From Paracoccaceae bacterium (GTDB lineage: Bacteria > Pseudomonadota > Alphaproteobacteria > Rhodobacterales > Rhodobacteraceae), in contig JAAFAB010000004.1 of the NCBI GenBank assembly GCA_018222585.1, positions 248,001 through 312,000 on the forward strand: 64,000 nt of DNA, in the 5' to 3' direction. Each line of letters starts with the position of its first letter. The stretch's first letter is position 1. Below are positions 43,000 to 51,195 of this stretch, in pieces. The translations under genes and the position numbers were made by a program. The notes beneath the pieces were generated by a model. The model did not search any database. It saw only the letters and a list, made by a program, of their open reading frames with translations, and was not told the DNA's origin.

Positions 43000-43075
43000 G
43001 GGCCTGTAGCTCAACGGTTAGAGCAGAGCGCTCATAACGCTTTGGTTGCGGGTTCAAATCCTGCCGGGCCTACCA
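43000..43075 (+). tRNA. tRNA with CAU anticodon, probably tRNA-Ile2 (lysidine type)
   Basis: A complete 76-base tRNA with encoded CCA. Acceptor stem GGGCCTG pairs with CGGGCCT; the anticodon stem-loop is GAGCG-CTCATAA-CGCTT (anticodon 43033-43035); the T arm is GCGGG-TTCAAAT-CCTGC. The anticodon CAU could mean Met or Ile2. The D-arm GGTTAGAGCAG, the loop CTCATAA and the variable loop TGGTT resemble E. coli tRNA-Ile2 more than elongator tRNA-Met, so C34 is probably modified to lysidine by TilS. Its 3' end is the likely phage attachment site. Confidence 0.92.
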
Positions 43076-43111
43076 AGAACCGTCGTTTTCCCAATAAAAT
43101 CAATGGCAATG

Positions 43112-43287: not shown

Positions 43288-43539
43288 ATGAAGTCGATCA
43301 CCTACAAGCCCGCTGCCATCCGCGCCCTGCGCAAGATGCCCAGAACCGATGCCAAGCGGATCACCGGGAAGATCGAGCAATATGCCGAAGACCCCTCTTC
43401 GCTGGCGAACAACGTCAAGGCGCTGAAGGGCCGCGAGGGCATCCGGCTGCGGGTCGGTGACTGGCGGGTGATCATGAACGATCAGGGCGAGGTCCTGGAC
43501 GTGCTGGCAATTGGCCCCCGTGGCGGGGTCTACGACTGA
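43288..43539 (+). CDS. RelE/ParE-superfamily toxin
   Basis: An 83-residue toxin of a type II system. The sequence has the RelE-like plan: N-terminal KPAAIRALRKMPRTDAKRI helix, then the strand pair GREGIRLRVGDWRVIMND, ending LAIGPRGGVYD. Family members cut mRNA on the ribosome (RelE, HigB) or block gyrase (ParE). The basic residues and the RxxxGDWRVI segment favour a RelE-type RNase. It precedes its antitoxin by 11 bp, the toxin-first order of HigBA. It probably stabilises the prophage. Confidence 0.88.
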   Translation: MKSITYKPAAIRALRKMPRTDAKRITGKIEQYAEDPSSLANNVKALKGREGIRLRVGDWRVIMNDQGEVLDVLAIGPRGGVYD

Positions 43540-43550
43540 AGGAGGCGATG

Positions 43551-43880
43551 ATGAACGAGATGGTGACCATTTCCCGCGCAGAGTACGACCGCCTGCGCCA
43601 GGCGGCCGAGGATCTCTCTGACCTGCAGGCCTATGACCGAGCCGTGGAAGCCGGCGGCGAAAGCGTCCCGGCCGAATACGTGAACCGGATCCTGAACGGA
43701 GAGAATCCGGTGCGCGTCTATCGCGACTGGCGCGGCCTGACAGCTGCCGCCTTGGCCGAGGCCTCCGGGGTGAACCGTGTCCAGATCACCCAGCTCGAGA
43801 CCGGCAAGCGCGGCGGCACCGTGGAAACGATGAAGAAGCTCGCGGAGGCCTTGAGTGTCGCGGTCGATGACCTGATCTGA
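43551..43880 (+). CDS. HTH antitoxin (Xre type)
   Basis: A 109-residue DNA-binding antitoxin. Residues about 1-60 form a helical region with the start MNEMVTISRAEYDRLRQAAE, which would bind the toxin. The C-terminal Xre helix-turn-helix is LTAAALAEASGVNRVQITQLETGKR (about 63-87). GGAGG lies five bases before this ATG; an adjacent upstream ATG at 43548 is only two bases from it and less likely. The protein should repress the operon by binding the two palindromes upstream. Confidence 0.87.
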   Translation: MNEMVTISRAEYDRLRQAAEDLSDLQAYDRAVEAGGESVPAEYVNRILNGENPVRVYRDWRGLTAAALAEASGVNRVQITQLETGKRGGTVETMKKLAEALSVAVDDLI

Positions 43881-44224: not shown

Positions 44225-45298
44225 TCAAGCAGACATCTCCACCTCAGCTTCCTCTTGGATTATTTTCACAAAATCGATTGGGTCGTTGAAATAGTTTCTA
44301 TAGGCTGACCTCAGCTGCTTCGGGTTGCTCGCTCGAACATAAACAGCGTTCAGGCTTGAACCTGAAGTTTCCAGCTCAGTGGCTTTAGCAATCGCATCGC
44401 CCGAGTTTTTAAACGGAATCACTTCTAGTCCGGCACTTCCATCCGCGTTTTGAAAGACATTTAGGACGGTATGCTCTTGCAGCTTCTCCTCGTCTTCGAA
44501 CTGCTTTAGAGCAGATAGCCGCTGTAGAATTCCAAGCTCATCTTCAAGTCCCTGAAGCTGCTCTTGTAGTTCAGCAGTACTCACCTCCAAAAAGGCTTTA
44601 TCCAGGTGTTCGTGCTTGCGAGCGATGATCTCGCTGGCAATCGCAAAGAACTTACCTCGCTTCGACTGGTCCATTTCGAACTTTGTCCGCTCCCCGTCGA
44701 TTAAGTCCGATATTTCAACAGCCGTGGCCCATGCATGCTGGGCGCGCGTGCGGTATTGAATCTCTACCATCAGCCCATCCCAAGGCTTCTTGGTTTCAGC
44801 TCGATTGCTTCCACGTGGCAGGTGCCGATATACATCATGGATTCCGCGGTATCCCGTGAATTTTGGCGTTTCGATATAGTCGTATTTTTCGCGCGGGTAT
44901 CTCAATGTATGATTGACGTTTTTCATAACAGCCGCGGAATTAAGATACTCCCTAAAGTCATGCAGGTCAGCAAGGTTTTCAAAAATCATCCTGCATCCAG
45001 CAAAGTCGTGCATAGCGGAAACGTCTGCAATGAGAGGACTGCCCACATCATTTTTTCGTTTCAGCTTGTCAATCACCGTGTTACGGCGCTTCAGGCGCTG
45101 CGCAAATTCAACGCTGTATGGCTTGATAGCAATTTTTCGCTTCAGCCAGATCTGAAAAGTGTTAATGACATAACCGTGGGATGAGCGCCACTGATCGACA
45201 AGGTCAAAATCTGCGCTTGTCCCGCTTCCATCCGCGATACGCTTTCCTGCCTGCCTAACTTGGGACTTGCTTTCGGGAGGCGGGGACCAGATCGACAT
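44225..45298 (-). CDS. RelA/SpoT-domain alarmone synthetase (small, no HD domain)
   Basis: A 357-residue protein with the (p)ppGpp synthetase core but no HD hydrolase, TGS or ACT domains. Core motifs: SAMHDFAGCRMIFEN (about residues 95-109), FTGYRGIHDVYRHL (about 147-160), and VEIQYRTRAQHAWATAVE (about 178-195), which match the GTP- and ATP-binding blocks. The C-terminal part is coiled coil plus a small alpha/beta tail. Family members make pppGpp or ppApp, or pyrophosphorylate tRNA, and several are phage-defence toxins. The start at 45298 has GGAAAA upstream. The gene is AT-richer than the phage genes, so it is probably acquired cargo. Confidence 0.85.
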   Translation of the reverse strand: MSIWSPPPESKSQVRQAGKRIADGSGTSADFDLVDQWRSSHGYVINTFQIWLKRKIAIKPYSVEFAQRLKRRNTVIDKLKRKNDVGSPLIADVSAMHDFAGCRMIFENLADLHDFREYLNSAAVMKNVNHTLRYPREKYDYIETPKFTGYRGIHDVYRHLPRGSNRAETKKPWDGLMVEIQYRTRAQHAWATAVEISDLIDGERTKFEMDQSKRGKFFAIASEIIARKHEHLDKAFLEVSTAELQEQLQGLEDELGILQRLSALKQFEDEEKLQEHTVLNVFQNADGSAGLEVIPFKNSGDAIAKATELETSGSSLNAVYVRASNPKQLRSAYRNYFNDPIDFVKIIQEEAEVEMSA

Positions 45299-45765
45299 GT
45301 GTTTTTCCAGAATTTGTTCTTGTTGCGGCCAACTTACTAGCGAAGCGCGCACATGTCACCGGGGATTCCGTTGACGCCGTACTGGGCCCGGCGCAAATCT
45401 AATTGAACGGCGTCGATGTGATTAGAAGTGAACTGTTGAACACAGTGTACAGCGGTTACTTCTTGAGTGATAGCGATCTGCTGAGCCTAGCGAGAGGGTC
45501 TACTTCGGGCTAGGATCGGTCATCCCCCGCGCCCGCAACGAATGGCCCGTTCGGGCCGTCTCTGCCGGGTAGGTCAAATCACTTAGCCGTCCAGCACGCC
45601 GCGCCGCCGTAGGTCCCGTCAGAGCCCATCCTTGACGAAGGCTGCGTCGTGGACCAACGTCTGCTAGGCCGATAGAGGTATAACGTCTGGCGCAACGCTT
45701 TTTGATTGTCAGCTGAGATGGTTAATACCGAGCTGCGTTTCATCAGCCGCATAAGGAAAAATTAG
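45299..45765. other. Divergent gap between alarmone synthetase and HEPN-like genes
   Basis: These 467 bp hold the promoters of two divergent genes. No tight palindrome stands out. The centre (about 45480-45600) is GC-rich, with a CCCGTTCGGGC hairpin and GGCTAGGATCGG-like segments, resembling decayed chromosomal sequence. There is no open frame with a ribosome-binding site. Confidence 0.5.
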
Positions 45766-47118: not shown

Positions 47119-47934
47119 CTACAGCAACCCGACCCGAGTCTCGCGGTTCGATACGATCAGCTCTTCCGCCTCCGATGCCCCGCTCTTAGCGACAGTGTAC
47201 TTCAGCCGCACCGGCTCGATCTGGAAGCCGGCGAACATGTCGCGGATCTCCGGCCGGTCGTTGATCGACAGGATAAACGCGCCCTTGATGCCGGCCAGCA
47301 GCTCGGCCATCTCGGCGAACTGATCCCGGGCGAACAGCCCCTTGCCGTAGTCGTTTTCCCCGCCCCAGTACGGCGGATCGAGGTAGAACAGCGCCTGCGG
47401 GCTGTCGTAGCGTTGCAGGACCTCCTTCCAGTCCAGGTTCTCGAAGATCACCCCGTCGAGGCGCTCGTGCGCGGCCTCCAGGAGCGGCTCCAGACGCGCC
47501 AGGCTGAACCGCCCTCCCCTGTCGCTCGACACCCCGAAGACGCCGCCGACCTGGCCACCGAAGGCGAGCCGCTGGAGGTACAGAAACCGGGCCGCCCTCT
47601 CCAAGTCCGTCAGCCCGCCCGGGTCCTGGGCGCGCAGGCGCTCGAACTCGCGGCGCGAGGTGATCTGGAAGCGCATGACATCCATGAGCTGCGGATAGTG
47701 CCGCTGCAGGATCCGAAAGAGGTTGGTGATTTCGCCGTTCAGATCGTTGGCGACCTCGCACCTGGGGCGCCAGCTGCGCCGCAGGAAGACGCCACCCATG
47801 CCGACGAACGGCTCGGCATAGGTGGCGTGAGGAATGGCCTCGATCCGGTCGATGATCTTCCGGTGCAGGGCTTTCTTGCCACCAAGCCAGGGCGCCACGG
47901 GGGCCGCCGGTGCGACCTTTGTCGTTGTGTTCAT
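47119..47934 (-). CDS. dam: Dam-like DNA adenine methyltransferase (D12 class)
   Basis: A 271-residue N6-adenine methyltransferase of the phage D12/Dam type. PWLGGKKALHRKI (residues 15-27) and FVGMGGVF (43-50) make up the AdoMet site, and the catalytic motif is YLDPPYWG (184-191, DPPY). The C-terminus has the NDRPEIRDMF region typical of Dam. Phages use such enzymes to protect their DNA from host restriction or to regulate genes. No matching restriction gene is adjacent, so it is an orphan methylase. The specificity (GATC or other) is not predictable. Confidence 0.92.
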   Translation of the reverse strand: MNTTTKVAPAAPVAPWLGGKKALHRKIIDRIEAIPHATYAEPFVGMGGVFLRRSWRPRCEVANDLNGEITNLFRILQRHYPQLMDVMRFQITSRREFERLRAQDPGGLTDLERAARFLYLQRLAFGGQVGGVFGVSSDRGGRFSLARLEPLLEAAHERLDGVIFENLDWKEVLQRYDSPQALFYLDPPYWGGENDYGKGLFARDQFAEMAELLAGIKGAFILSINDRPEIRDMFAGFQIEPVRLKYTVAKSGASEAEELIVSNRETRVGLL

Positions 47935-48392: not shown

Positions 48393-48576
48393 CGTCGCGC
48401 TCCTTGTCGAGGTGAAGATCCGCCACCCGGCCGTTGCAGCCGGTCAGCATCGTGTCGAGGATCTGCGCCCGCGCCTGCAGGCGGTCGACCTCGGCCGAGA
48501 GGTGCCAGGCCAGCCCGGCGGCGCCGAGGACCGCCGCCACCGCGCCGCCGGCGAGGTATGGCGCCAGGAAGCGCAT
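48319..48576 (-). CDS. Rz-like inner-membrane spanin
   Basis: An 85-residue protein with an N-terminal transmembrane helix (LAGGAVAAVLGAAGLAWHL) and a periplasmic coiled coil (SAEVDRLQARAQILDTML), the features of an i-spanin. Its ATG overlaps the lysozyme stop (TGATG at 48578-48574), so it is translationally coupled. The Rz1-like gene starts within it. Shorter than lambda Rz. Confidence 0.7.
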   Translation of the reverse strand: MRFLAPYLAGGAVAAVLGAAGLAWHLSAEVDRLQARAQILDTMLTGCNGRVADLHLDKERDDAVDSIPDSDLGRSVPDRWLLPAE

Positions 48577-49316
48577 CACGCTCCCAGCCCCTCAAGGCAG
48601 AGCGCCCGCTCGGCCGCGCGGCGGCGGGTCAGCCCGCGCACCGGCTGCAGCACGCCCTTCACCCTGGCCTTGTTCCACATCATCAGCGCCTCGCAGGCGC
48701 CGGCGAGATCACCGGCCATGGCGCGGCGCGACATCGAGGAGCCGCAGAAGGCCCCGGCGCCGATGTTGTAGGCCGCCGAGACGAAGGCGGCGCGCGTCTG
48801 GTCCGGCAGCTCGGCCGGCAGGCAGGGGCGGATCCGGGCTTCGAAGGCGACGACCTCGGCCAGGAAGATCTCTCGGCACTCCTCGGCCGTCGCGGTGTCG
48901 CCGAGGCGCACGCCCTCTGTGTGCCCGGTGCAGATCGTCGGGATGCCGGCGATGTCGATATAGGCCTTCAGCCGGGTGTCCTCCCAGGGCTCGATGAAGG
49001 CGACGGCCAGGATCACCGCTGCAGCTGCGCCGGCGGCGCTGCGGCCGAACCAGCTGCGCGGCAGGCCGATGCCGCCGTCCTCCTCGACCAGGAAGGCCTC
49101 GACCTTCTCCTGGAACAGGATCCGCGCCGGGATCGCCAGCACTGCCAGCAGGCCCGCGAGCAGCGCGAAGACCGGCGCCGGCAGGCCCAGCATCGAGGCA
49201 TCGAGCAGCATCAGCGCCACCGAGGCGAAGATCAGCGCCGCCGAGGCCAGCATCAGCCAGATCGACCAGGCATAGCGCAACACGCTGCGCCAGTTGGAAA
49301 GAAGCCGTGGTTTCAT
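48576..49316 (-). CDS. Holin-like domain fused to a SAR endolysin (GH24 lysozyme)
   Basis: A 246-residue protein. Residues 1-70 hold two transmembrane helices (about 14-38 and 47-68) resembling a small holin. After a hydrophilic linker (VEAFLVEEDGG) comes an Ala/Gly-rich helix (about 93-109) typical of a signal-arrest-release anchor. The T4-type lysozyme domain follows: catalytic triad E112-x8-D121-x5-T127 in EDTRLKAYIDIAGIPT, then GHTEGVRLGD. The start has GGAGGTG upstream. An internal GGAGG precedes codon 83 (ATC), possibly a relic or alternative start of the lysozyme. Normally these are two genes. Confidence 0.82.
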   Translation of the reverse strand: MKPRLLSNWRSVLRYAWSIWLMLASAALIFASVALMLLDASMLGLPAPVFALLAGLLAVLAIPARILFQEKVEAFLVEEDGGIGLPRSWFGRSAAGAAAAVILAVAFIEPWEDTRLKAYIDIAGIPTICTGHTEGVRLGDTATAEECREIFLAEVVAFEARIRPCLPAELPDQTRAAFVSAAYNIGAGAFCGSSMSRRAMAGDLAGACEALMMWNKARVKGVLQPVRGLTRRRAAERALCLEGLGA

Positions 49317-49416
49317 GTTCACCTCCGAGGAAAGAAAAAGGCCCCGCGCGATGCACGGGGCCGGTGACACGAATGTCCGTCTTGAACATCCGCGAGGGGC
49401 GCGCCAGAAGGCGGCC

Positions 49417-49626
49417 ATGAGCACGAATTACTGCAAGATCGACCGCGAGGCCGGCACCTTCACCCTGCAGCTGGCGACCTGGCACAACATCTATCCGCTG
49501 GAGACGCTGGACAGCTGGCTGACCTTCTACCGAGAGCAGCGCCGGCTTTTCCCGAAGTCCCGTGACACCTACGATGAGACCATCGCGCTGCTGGAACAGG
49601 CCGCGGCAGAGCACGACGCGGGCTGA
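49417..49626 (+). CDS. Small protein family, tandem paralogue 1
   Basis: A 69-residue protein on the strand opposite to the phage late genes. The core YPLETLDSWLTFYREQRRLF-PKSRD is shared with two following genes (32 of 69 and 31 of 69 residues identical by hand alignment). AGAAGG lies five bases before the ATG. The protein has beta-like N-terminal strands and a charged C-terminal helix, no membrane segment and no motif I know. Opposite orientation and separate spacing suggest a moron-type gene expressed from the prophage. Confidence 0.72.
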   Translation: MSTNYCKIDREAGTFTLQLATWHNIYPLETLDSWLTFYREQRRLFPKSRDTYDETIALLEQAAAEHDAG

Positions 49627-49721
49627 AAATCTGGGCGTTACGCGCTGACGTGCCTGAAGGCATAGACCGCCCCCTTCAGAAACTCTGGACTTGATCTTGG
49701 TGCGACTTAATTCGCCCAGTC

Positions 49722-49991
49722 ATGACAATAGAGAAGATCGAGATTGACCCCGCCGCCGCGACGCTAACGCTTCACTTCGAGGAGCATTGCCGCTCTTACC
49801 CTTTGGCTGACCTGCAAGACTGGCTGACCTTTCACAGGGAGCAGCGAGACCTCTTCCCGAAGTACCGCGCCAGGCATGAAGAGATCATCACTGCGCTTGA
49901 GACGGTCCTCGCCGAGCACACCGCCAATTTACTTGGTCTTGGTGGCCCCGAAACATGCGCCGACCCGAGTCGAAAGCCTGACGCTGGTTAG
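49722..49991 (+). CDS. Small protein family, tandem paralogue 2
   Basis: An 89-residue member of the same family. It has the same core (YPLADLQDWLTFHREQRDLF then PKYR) and ends the shared region at LAEHTAN, but carries about 20 extra residues at the C-terminus (GLGGPETCADPSRKPDAG), probably a read-on after loss of the original stop. It is 95 bp after the first copy. No strong Shine-Dalgarno is visible. Function unknown. Confidence 0.65.
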   Translation: MTIEKIEIDPAAATLTLHFEEHCRSYPLADLQDWLTFHREQRDLFPKYRARHEEIITALETVLAEHTANLLGLGGPETCADPSRKPDAG

Positions 49992-50130
49992 GGCGCCGGG
50001 TTCAGCACCTATGTGGTCGCTTGAGGTGTCCGATCGGTCGCTCCTAGGCTCAAAGAAGCGTAAGCAGCATCTAGACACTGAACGTGGAGAGCGCGACAGT
50101 CCGGCTGGGACAAAGTAGTTGATTCAGCCA

Positions 50131-50340
50131 ATGACTATTCAAAGTTACACGCTAGATCGTGAAACGGGTGTGTGCTCGGTGGAAATCGCAGCGCACGTGG
50201 TGGAATATCCGTTAGCAGAGCTTGAGGGTTGGATTTGTTTCTATGACAGGCAGCGCGAGCGCTTTCCCAAATCAAGAGACAAATATGACGTCGTCATCAA
50301 CCTTCTTGAGAGCGCCCTTGCCGAGCGTGATTTGAACTAG
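50131..50340 (+). CDS. Small protein family, tandem paralogue 3
   Basis: A 69-residue third copy, the same length as the first. Core YPLAELEGWICFYDRQRERF then PKSRDKYD. It is more AT-rich than the first copy. An upstream TTG in frame at 50119 is possible, but the ATG at 50131 gives the family length and start MTIQ. Its stop shares CTAG with the stop of the convergent membrane protein gene. The gap between copies 2 and 3 (49992-50130) has no gene. Confidence 0.7.
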   Translation: MTIQSYTLDRETGVCSVEIAAHVVEYPLAELEGWICFYDRQRERFPKSRDKYDVVINLLESALAERDLN

Positions 50341-50657
50341 CGAACGGTCTCAATCCTTTCCAGCCGCGCGTCGATGCGCGAGAGCAGGCCGAGGATCGAA
50401 GAGAAGCGCTCATCGGCGCGGGCTTGTTCGCTTTCCAGCGCTCGCACGCGAGCTTCCAGCCGGGTCTGCTCTGCCCGAGCCTCTTTCAGTTCGACTACAC
50501 TGCGGGCGATCTCGACCGAGTTGGTCTCAGTCTGGGTCCGCAGCGCATAGAACGCACCGGCCCCACCCAGCACGATCAGGACGATCTGGACCACGTTCCC
50601 AAAGGAAATCGTGGACGTGAACTCGGGCCGCCGGGGGCGGAAGGTATCTTCAGTCAT
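50337..50657 (-). CDS. Small membrane protein with coiled coil
   Basis: A 106-residue protein with one transmembrane helix (VVQIVLIVLGGAGAFYAL, about residues 22-39) followed by a long coiled coil (VVELKEARAEQTRLEARVRAL and onward) ending ARLERIETVR. The start at 50657 gives MTEDTFRPRRPEFTST; a longer frame has an implausible Cys/Arg leader. It lies between lysis and tail genes, where phages often have spanin- or holin-associated proteins. Function unknown. Confidence 0.65.
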   Translation of the reverse strand: MTEDTFRPRRPEFTSTISFGNVVQIVLIVLGGAGAFYALRTQTETNSVEIARSVVELKEARAEQTRLEARVRALESEQARADERFSSILGLLSRIDARLERIETVR

Positions 50658-50715
50658 GTCTGCCTTCTTGGGAGCTATCCGGTCCCTTTTCATTTCAGAG
50701 TTGCGCCGGCAGTGC

Positions 50716-51195
50716 TCATTGCACGCTCGGCATGGCAATGCTGGCCGGCGCCATCACCGGCGCGCCCTGCGCATCGAGGACGGGCGCCCCGGCCTCGTCC
50801 ACGAGTGGCCGCGCCGGGATCGACGCCACGCTGGACCAGAGCGCCCAGGCCCCGGCATCCTGCCTCACCTGCGCGTAGAGAGCGGCGCCTGTGGTGGCAT
50901 AGCTGTCGCTGCGCTGGCCGGGCATCTCGTAGGGCGTCCGGCCGAGGATGGTGATGCCCAGCTCGGGCACTTCGGCCAGCGCGGTCCATTGCGCCACCTG
51001 CGCCGGCGTGAGGTTGGCATAGAGGCCGGCCGGCCCGTCATTGGCCTGGCCGGGGTTCGGGTAGCTGGCGGTGCGGGCGATCCCGCCCTCGACCCGCGAG
51101 CCGTCCTCGGCGATCACGCCCGGGACATGGGCGGCCAGCCAGGCGATCAGGGCCTGCTCATTGGCGATGTAGATCAGGGCTGCGGTGACGGTCAT
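50716..51195 (-). CDS. Phage protein of unknown function downstream of the tail fibre
   Basis: A 159-residue protein. The N-terminal helix MTVTAALIYIANEQALIAWLAAHVPGV precedes a mixed domain and a C-terminal stretch VLDAQGAPVMAPASIAMPSVQ. Its ATG overlaps the tail-fibre stop (ATGA, 51192-51195), so the two are coupled. Such coupling and position fit a fibre chaperone or attachment factor, but no family is recognised. Confidence 0.65.
   Translation of the reverse strand: MTVTAALIYIANEQALIAWLAAHVPGVIAEDGSRVEGGIARTASYPNPGQANDGPAGLYANLTPAQVAQWTALAEVPELGITILGRTPYEMPGQRSDSYATTGAALYAQVRQDAGAWALWSSVASIPARPLVDEAGAPVLDAQGAPVMAPASIAMPSVQ

Follow-up and report, generated by a model that had tools for sequence, protein, structure and literature searches.

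The window, a 64,000-nucleotide stretch of the genome of a marine Paracoccaceae bacterium, carries three small, intact, homologous open reading frames on its + strand: copy 1 (49417-49626, 69 amino acids), copy 2 (49722-49991, 89 amino acids, made up of 69 aligned residues and a 20-residue tail) and copy 3 (50131-50340, 69 amino acids), separated by gaps of 95 and 139 bp. The initial annotation had reported related frames of 69, 89 and 69 codons with these boundaries and this spacing, all of which holds. Its figure of about 45% identity for every pair stands for copies 1 and 2 (47% over the aligned part, E 6e-19) and copies 1 and 3 (46%, E 9e-21), but is too high for copies 2 and 3 (36%, E 1e-17; all single-comparison BLASTP). 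Chance likeness is excluded by these E-values, and also because copy 1 alone as query finds relatives in phages (E 8e-10 to 1e-5). The copies differ in GC content, as had been noted, with 63, 58 and 50% in copies 1, 2 and 3, lower than the approximately 70% of the adjacent endolysin gene. This endolysin (48576-49316, - strand) consists of a holin-like N-terminal part and a phage lysozyme (Phage_lysozyme 3.8e-33, phrog_7 4.6e-51). On the other side of the array, the late-strand neighbour g_w (50337-50657, - strand, 106 amino acids) shares 4 bp with the end of copy 3; from reading of its sequence it appears to contain a membrane segment and a coiled coil, and it has no match above the curated cut-off in the family libraries. 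Genes for tail fibre, tape measure, head-tail adaptor, major head protein and protease follow further along the - strand, and the array therefore faces the late operon, in the orientation originally described.

Just upstream of the endolysin gene, an intrinsic-terminator-like hairpin followed by a T run (49340-49362, - strand) faces late transcription. Late transcripts would have to pass this hairpin to reach the endolysin, which suggests antitermination. The terminator search found two sites like this hairpin, compared with a mean of 1.4 in shuffled sequence, and no terminator-like site on the + strand within 48500-51000, so that read-through into copies 2 and 3 is possible. A downstream terminator of its own is a common, although not strict, feature of a moron.

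The three copies belong to an unnamed family of small proteins found in mobile elements of Rhodobacterales, in phages, on plasmids and in chromosomes. A tblastn search with copy 1 detected one copy in each of the Paracoccus phages Psul1, Pben1, Pthi1 and Pyei1. These belong to a set of five phages that, according to the accessible part of PMC6536676, were obtained by inducing lysogens with mitomycin C; the remaining one, Pkon1, did not appear among the matches. Profile searches gave matches in 7 of the 22 genomes from the window's genus (E 0.001, own genome counted), in 7 of 394 genomes of the taxonomic family (1e-4) and 10 of 390 of the order (1e-6), own genome and weak matches being counted in both, in 36 of 125 Paracoccus genomes (1e-6) and in 10 viral contigs. 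Five plasmid records match at E 0.1, one of which holds the Pben1 prophage and one a partial Mesorhizobium match. The window's genus is here the one holding Pseudooceanicola marinus, where G009:C18 (NZ_PGTC01000018.1) carries the same protein, and genus g24 was taken as Paracoccus because it contains the Pthi1 region at 100% (L095) and the Psul1 protein (L058). The initial annotation had looked to homologues in other prophages as support for the genes, and these are present; it would have been troubled by their lack or by disrupted frames, and here some family copies are indeed disrupted, since 5 of the 59 Paracoccus matches have an internal stop. No other close array was found in the match tables of the own genus, family, order and Paracoccus, in which no two matches lie less than 30 kb apart on one contig except the window's three. 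Among 29 members there was no significant match in Pfam, NCBIfam, PHROGs or PADLOC (best E 0.047, 0.039, 0.0093 for one member, and 0.031, respectively). Relatives range from 60 to at least 83 amino acids, with C-termini of variable length. Copy 2 does have 20 additional residues, but the loss of an original stop codon, as first proposed, is not demonstrable from one sequence in a family whose C-terminal length varies. Both structure models have the order beta-beta-beta-alpha-alpha (pLDDT 89.2 and 94.9), and structure comparison gave no convincing match. P27 and L59 (copy 1 numbering) are invariant, and T16, Y26, L31, W34, Y38, Y52 and E60 almost invariant; copy 2 departs at positions 38 and 52, both of which are H.

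In phages, the family gene is typically found beside lysis genes. Of 20 distinct phage-type loci, 17 have a gene of endolysin type no more than 1.8 kb away and on the strand opposite to the family gene, a count that is descriptive, as our queries were drawn from such neighbours and the endolysin label at L033 is our own reading. We classed these loci (the window, L001-L004, L028-L030, L032-L034, L036-L039, L098, L103, L105, L107 and L108) by queries with endolysin, tail and neighbour proteins, counting near-identical loci once. The exceptions are L001, where the gene sits in the early region, L034 and L105; including the phage-like loci L102, L104 and L111, which do not fit, gives 17 of 23. 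The late-strand neighbour of the family gene differs among prophages, and hence no constant counter-defence partner is seen. In four loci the gene immediately upstream, in the same orientation, encodes a 139-amino-acid protein without a Pfam or PHROG match (L003 3362-3781, L002 2836-3255, L032 3524-3940 and L103 7371-7799), and in three of these four the family gene's -35 element is CTGG.

In another prophage of the window's genome (L038) and at a locus in a congener (L039), a single copy is present in the place of copy 1. Their homology to the window stops at 49624 and 49620, and copies 2 and 3 are therefore an extra segment absent from both. Recent tandem duplication as the origin of the array was ruled out: copy 1 is 83% identical to the single copy in the other prophage of its own genome, and 46% and 45% identical to copies 2 and 3 in the same comparison. 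Homologues of g_w at L115-L117 (G016:C81, G000:C20 and G010:C9) have no family gene beside them, and the next gene after each is a different one, which we take to be an endolysin; since it is not homologous to that of the window, these loci offer no exact empty site. One of them, L117 (G000:C20:370030), is a further g_w homologue in the window's own genome, and for this reason probably marks a third prophage with a different endolysin.

Several other genes of the window's prophage and its surroundings can be recorded here. A D12-class N6-adenine DNA methyltransferase is encoded downstream of the lysis genes (47119-47934, - strand; PF02086 4.7e-20). Towards the prophage edge lie a gene for a RelA/SpoT-domain protein (44225-45310, - strand; PF04607 8.6e-14, phrog_4773 1.6e-60) and, beside it, a pair that reads as RelE-like plus HTH (43288-43880, + strand), adjoined by tRNA-Met (43000-43075); judged by their sequences, these genes possibly represent a toxin-antitoxin or alarmone-based defence. 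Homology to the congener G004 ends at 43092, just past the tRNA-Met, and G004 has another family member approximately 5 kb beyond the same place (L043 4200-9404), with a terminator-like remnant upstream and neighbours that are presumably an AraC regulator and rsgA.

Ungapped alignment of upstream sequences, numbered back from the ATG, revealed two shared elements: TTG, occupying -35 to -33, and a hexamer resembling CAAAAC, occupying -12 to -7. An exact rule (TTG at exactly -35, with A at -11 and -8), tested on loci fetched later, was matched by 19 of 33 later-fetched family genes compared with 3 among the 3471 remaining ATGs of those loci, L090 having been dropped because it has no ATG. Removal of five near-repeats, whose upstream sequence was at least 80% like or identical to ones seen before, left 16 of 28. 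Of 60 distinct family genes, one has no ATG and was set aside; a looser rule was matched by 37 of the remaining 59. In the retrieved regions of the four phages, none of 60 other annotated genes matched it, and a count over the ATGs of 17 loci, those of family genes too, gave 34 matches in 7395. As the rows are related, P values for these counts would come out too small. Shine-Dalgarno cores precede 8 of the 59 family genes, in contrast to 38 of 60 other annotated phage genes. With a 17-bp spacer and a 6-bp discriminator, the predicted +1 is the A of the ATG itself, and from this arrangement it is quite probable that the family message is leaderless. Most alphaproteobacterial sigma-70 promoters analysed in the accessible part of PMC8407463 are without T at -7, and so is the hexamer of the family promoter. 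Copy 1 fits the pattern, with TTGAAC (49382-49387), a 17-bp spacer, CAGAAG (49405-49410) and 6 bp before the ATG at 49417, so that a promoter of its own is predicted for it at 49382-49410 (+ strand), which agrees with its initial description as a moron. The pattern was found at lysis, early-region and chromosomal sites and at one of three plasmid copies. It is lacking in 22 of the 59 family genes, namely copies 2 and 3, L016 and 19 others; among the 22 are two of the three plasmid copies and the chromosomal-locus copy L079.

Homology between copy 1 and two P. marinus copies extends over 49380-49626, starting with the -35 element and ending with the stop codon. The family promoter and gene also occur together outside phages. 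In Paracoccus, a chromosomal copy (eight such loci were examined) is divergent from a gene that we take to be aspartate kinase, after which comes a presumed ptsP; on the other side, five of the eight loci have what are presumably DUF192, cold-shock and pdxH genes, and L099, L101 and L106 have other genes, phage-like in L106, all these names being our readings of the sequences. The family gene lies beside this kinase in 11 (G582, G726, G686, G712, G708, G681, G585, G731, G724, G675 and G722) of the 122 Paracoccus genomes that have it. In G696 the flanks of this locus meet with approximately 10 bp between them, where G675 has 251 bp that contain both the promoter and the gene and G674 has approximately 180 bp of other sequence, a comparison compatible with either gain or loss. 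The family is very probably an accessory, moron-type cassette of promoter plus open reading frame of temperate Rhodobacterales phages, which is also found on plasmids and chromosomes.

Selection on the family is purifying. The initial annotation had seen diverging paralogues under diversifying pressure, and dN/dS values (Nei-Gojobori) argue against this: for copy 1, they are 0.24 against L038, 0.24 against P. marinus and 0.56 against L039, while the median is 0.24 for 36 pairs from the chromosomal locus and 0.15 for 28 pairs from a phage clade. In the tree (60 rows, 65 columns, midpoint root; 18 of 57 inner branches well supported), nine chromosomal-locus rows have support of 89/74 and are not firmly one group, and with the Pben1-type phage clade (98/91) the chromosomal-locus rows form a 98/94 group; L066 is one of the nine rows, though labelled 'other' on the tree. 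Copies 2 and 3 have branch lengths of 1.04 and 1.35, compared with 0.10 for copy 1, to be read with caution as long branches meet there. These branches, the missing promoter pattern and the lack of a Shine-Dalgarno core upstream, as read by eye, are consistent with copies 2 and 3 being relics that have lost their promoter and are drifting, leaving copy 1 alone to work, and we give this about an even chance. Against it, both frames are open, and in comparison with copy 1 their pN (0.37 and 0.40) is smaller than pS (0.62 and 0.87, near saturation) and codon positions 1 and 2 are more conserved than position 3, although this may reflect older constraint. That copies 2 and 3 are made as protein we consider rather less likely than not.

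The best explanation as a whole, to which we assign a probability of roughly 0.45, is that copy 1 is a moron cassette that is on in the lysogen and confers an anti-phage benefit. The unit would comprise a promoter with its start on the A of the ATG, a leaderless mRNA and a protein of approximately 60-70 amino acids, predicted to fold into three strands followed by two helices. As long as the late operon is silent in the prophage, this promoter would drive copy 1, and the product would benefit the lysogen, most likely by shielding it from other phages. After induction, late transcripts running antisense across the cassette would damp its expression. Copies 2 and 3 would have been acquired or have diverged earlier and, lacking the promoter, could at most be expressed by read-through. 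The roles initially suggested, which were superinfection immunity, anti-defence and modification of the host, are all candidates. Anti-phage protection of the lysogen is favoured among roles, although by analogy and with more doubt than belief, because the layout resembles that of Tab and Tai. The tail assembly blocker Tab of Pseudomonas phage JBD26 is an 83-amino-acid anti-phage moron, encoded on the minus strand inside the late operon and expressed from the prophage by its own promoter, according to the accessible part of PMC10884400. The family shares with it a small moron protein, the opposite-strand position inside the late operon and, as predicted for copy 1, an own promoter. Tab differs in lying between terminase genes with an anti-Tab partner, and neither a leaderless mRNA nor chromosomal copies are mentioned for it in that part of PMC10884400. 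Alignment of the family with Tab gave no homology (hhalign probability 0.1, 18 columns, E 0.58), and with PADLOC likewise without a significant match, these comparisons yielded no sequence link to a defence protein. Further points against the best explanation are the family genes lacking the promoter pattern, the absence of a + strand terminator-like site in 48500-51000, the changing late-strand neighbour and the Paracoccus matches with internal stops. The tail-assembly-inhibition family Tai, as described in the accessible part of PMC11364771, is similarly divergent and mostly at phage moron loci, and the phi80 Tai protein fell when Q drove late expression. The Tai genes of phages differ from our family in that most of them precede the packaging module and are accompanied by an inhibitor gene, ati. 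A related antisense layout is that of the noncontiguous tha/ith operon of S. aureus prophages, where, in the accessible part of PMC11087260, the antisense gene is an inhibitor rather than a defence and belongs to the cI (lysogeny) operon.

A more specific reading, which we consider unlikely, would make the approximately 250 bp of leaderless promoter and open reading frame a minimal transferable defence cassette moving among lysis operons, plasmids and a chromosomal site; its message, all coding and antisense to late transcripts, would be on in the lysogen and off on induction with no regulator. An anti-defence protein, neutralising a host defence on entry of the phage or plasmid and leaving chromosomal copies as leftovers of mobile elements, would suit the early-region phage copy and the plasmid copies, which lie near genes annotated as ParB, DUF932, DUF1173, DUF3560 and methyltransferase. 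It has equally little probability in our view, since most phage copies are near lysis genes and the chromosomal-locus dN/dS indicates more constraint than leftovers should show. Neighbouring genes or matches of Y-family DNA polymerases (near L003, L029, L095, L103, L104 and L109, with a further one next to L054, a plasmid copy) may indicate a different role and so weigh against the anti-phage explanation. Like the copies at the chromosomal locus, they would be expected of a host stress or DNA-damage factor that travels on mobile elements without anti-phage effects. This we hold to be rather improbable: the polymerase of L003 is matched at 78-100% by those of L029, L095, L103 and L104, so that these neighbours are not independent, and LexA-type boxes (GTTCN7GTTC) are present in just 2 of 28 upstream stretches of 160 bp and at none of the window copies. 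The two boxes, at L029 and L033, are both more than 100 bp upstream of the family ATG. One gene near the family locus in L104 reads as YedK. Control of lysis, in which endolysin expression would be tuned by the protein, by its antisense transcript or by the terminator close to it, is improbable. In its favour are the adjoining endolysin and a terminator-like hairpin that 11 of 16 phage-located members, compared with 1 of 6 chromosomal-locus members, have on the minus strand upstream of the cassette, on the endolysin side. Against it, family genes are also found on plasmids, at the chromosomal locus and in the early region of a phage, without lysis genes, and the endolysins near the family differ in type (lysozyme, amidase).

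The analysis delimits an unnamed family of small proteins in Rhodobacterales mobile elements, with a simple sequence rule for its promoter. Material for testing its role is at hand in the inducible Paracoccus phages with one copy each, the natural chromosomal copies and the one prophage with three. If the family gene is a defence gene, it would extend the theme of Tab and Tai to the Alphaproteobacteria with a new promoter design.
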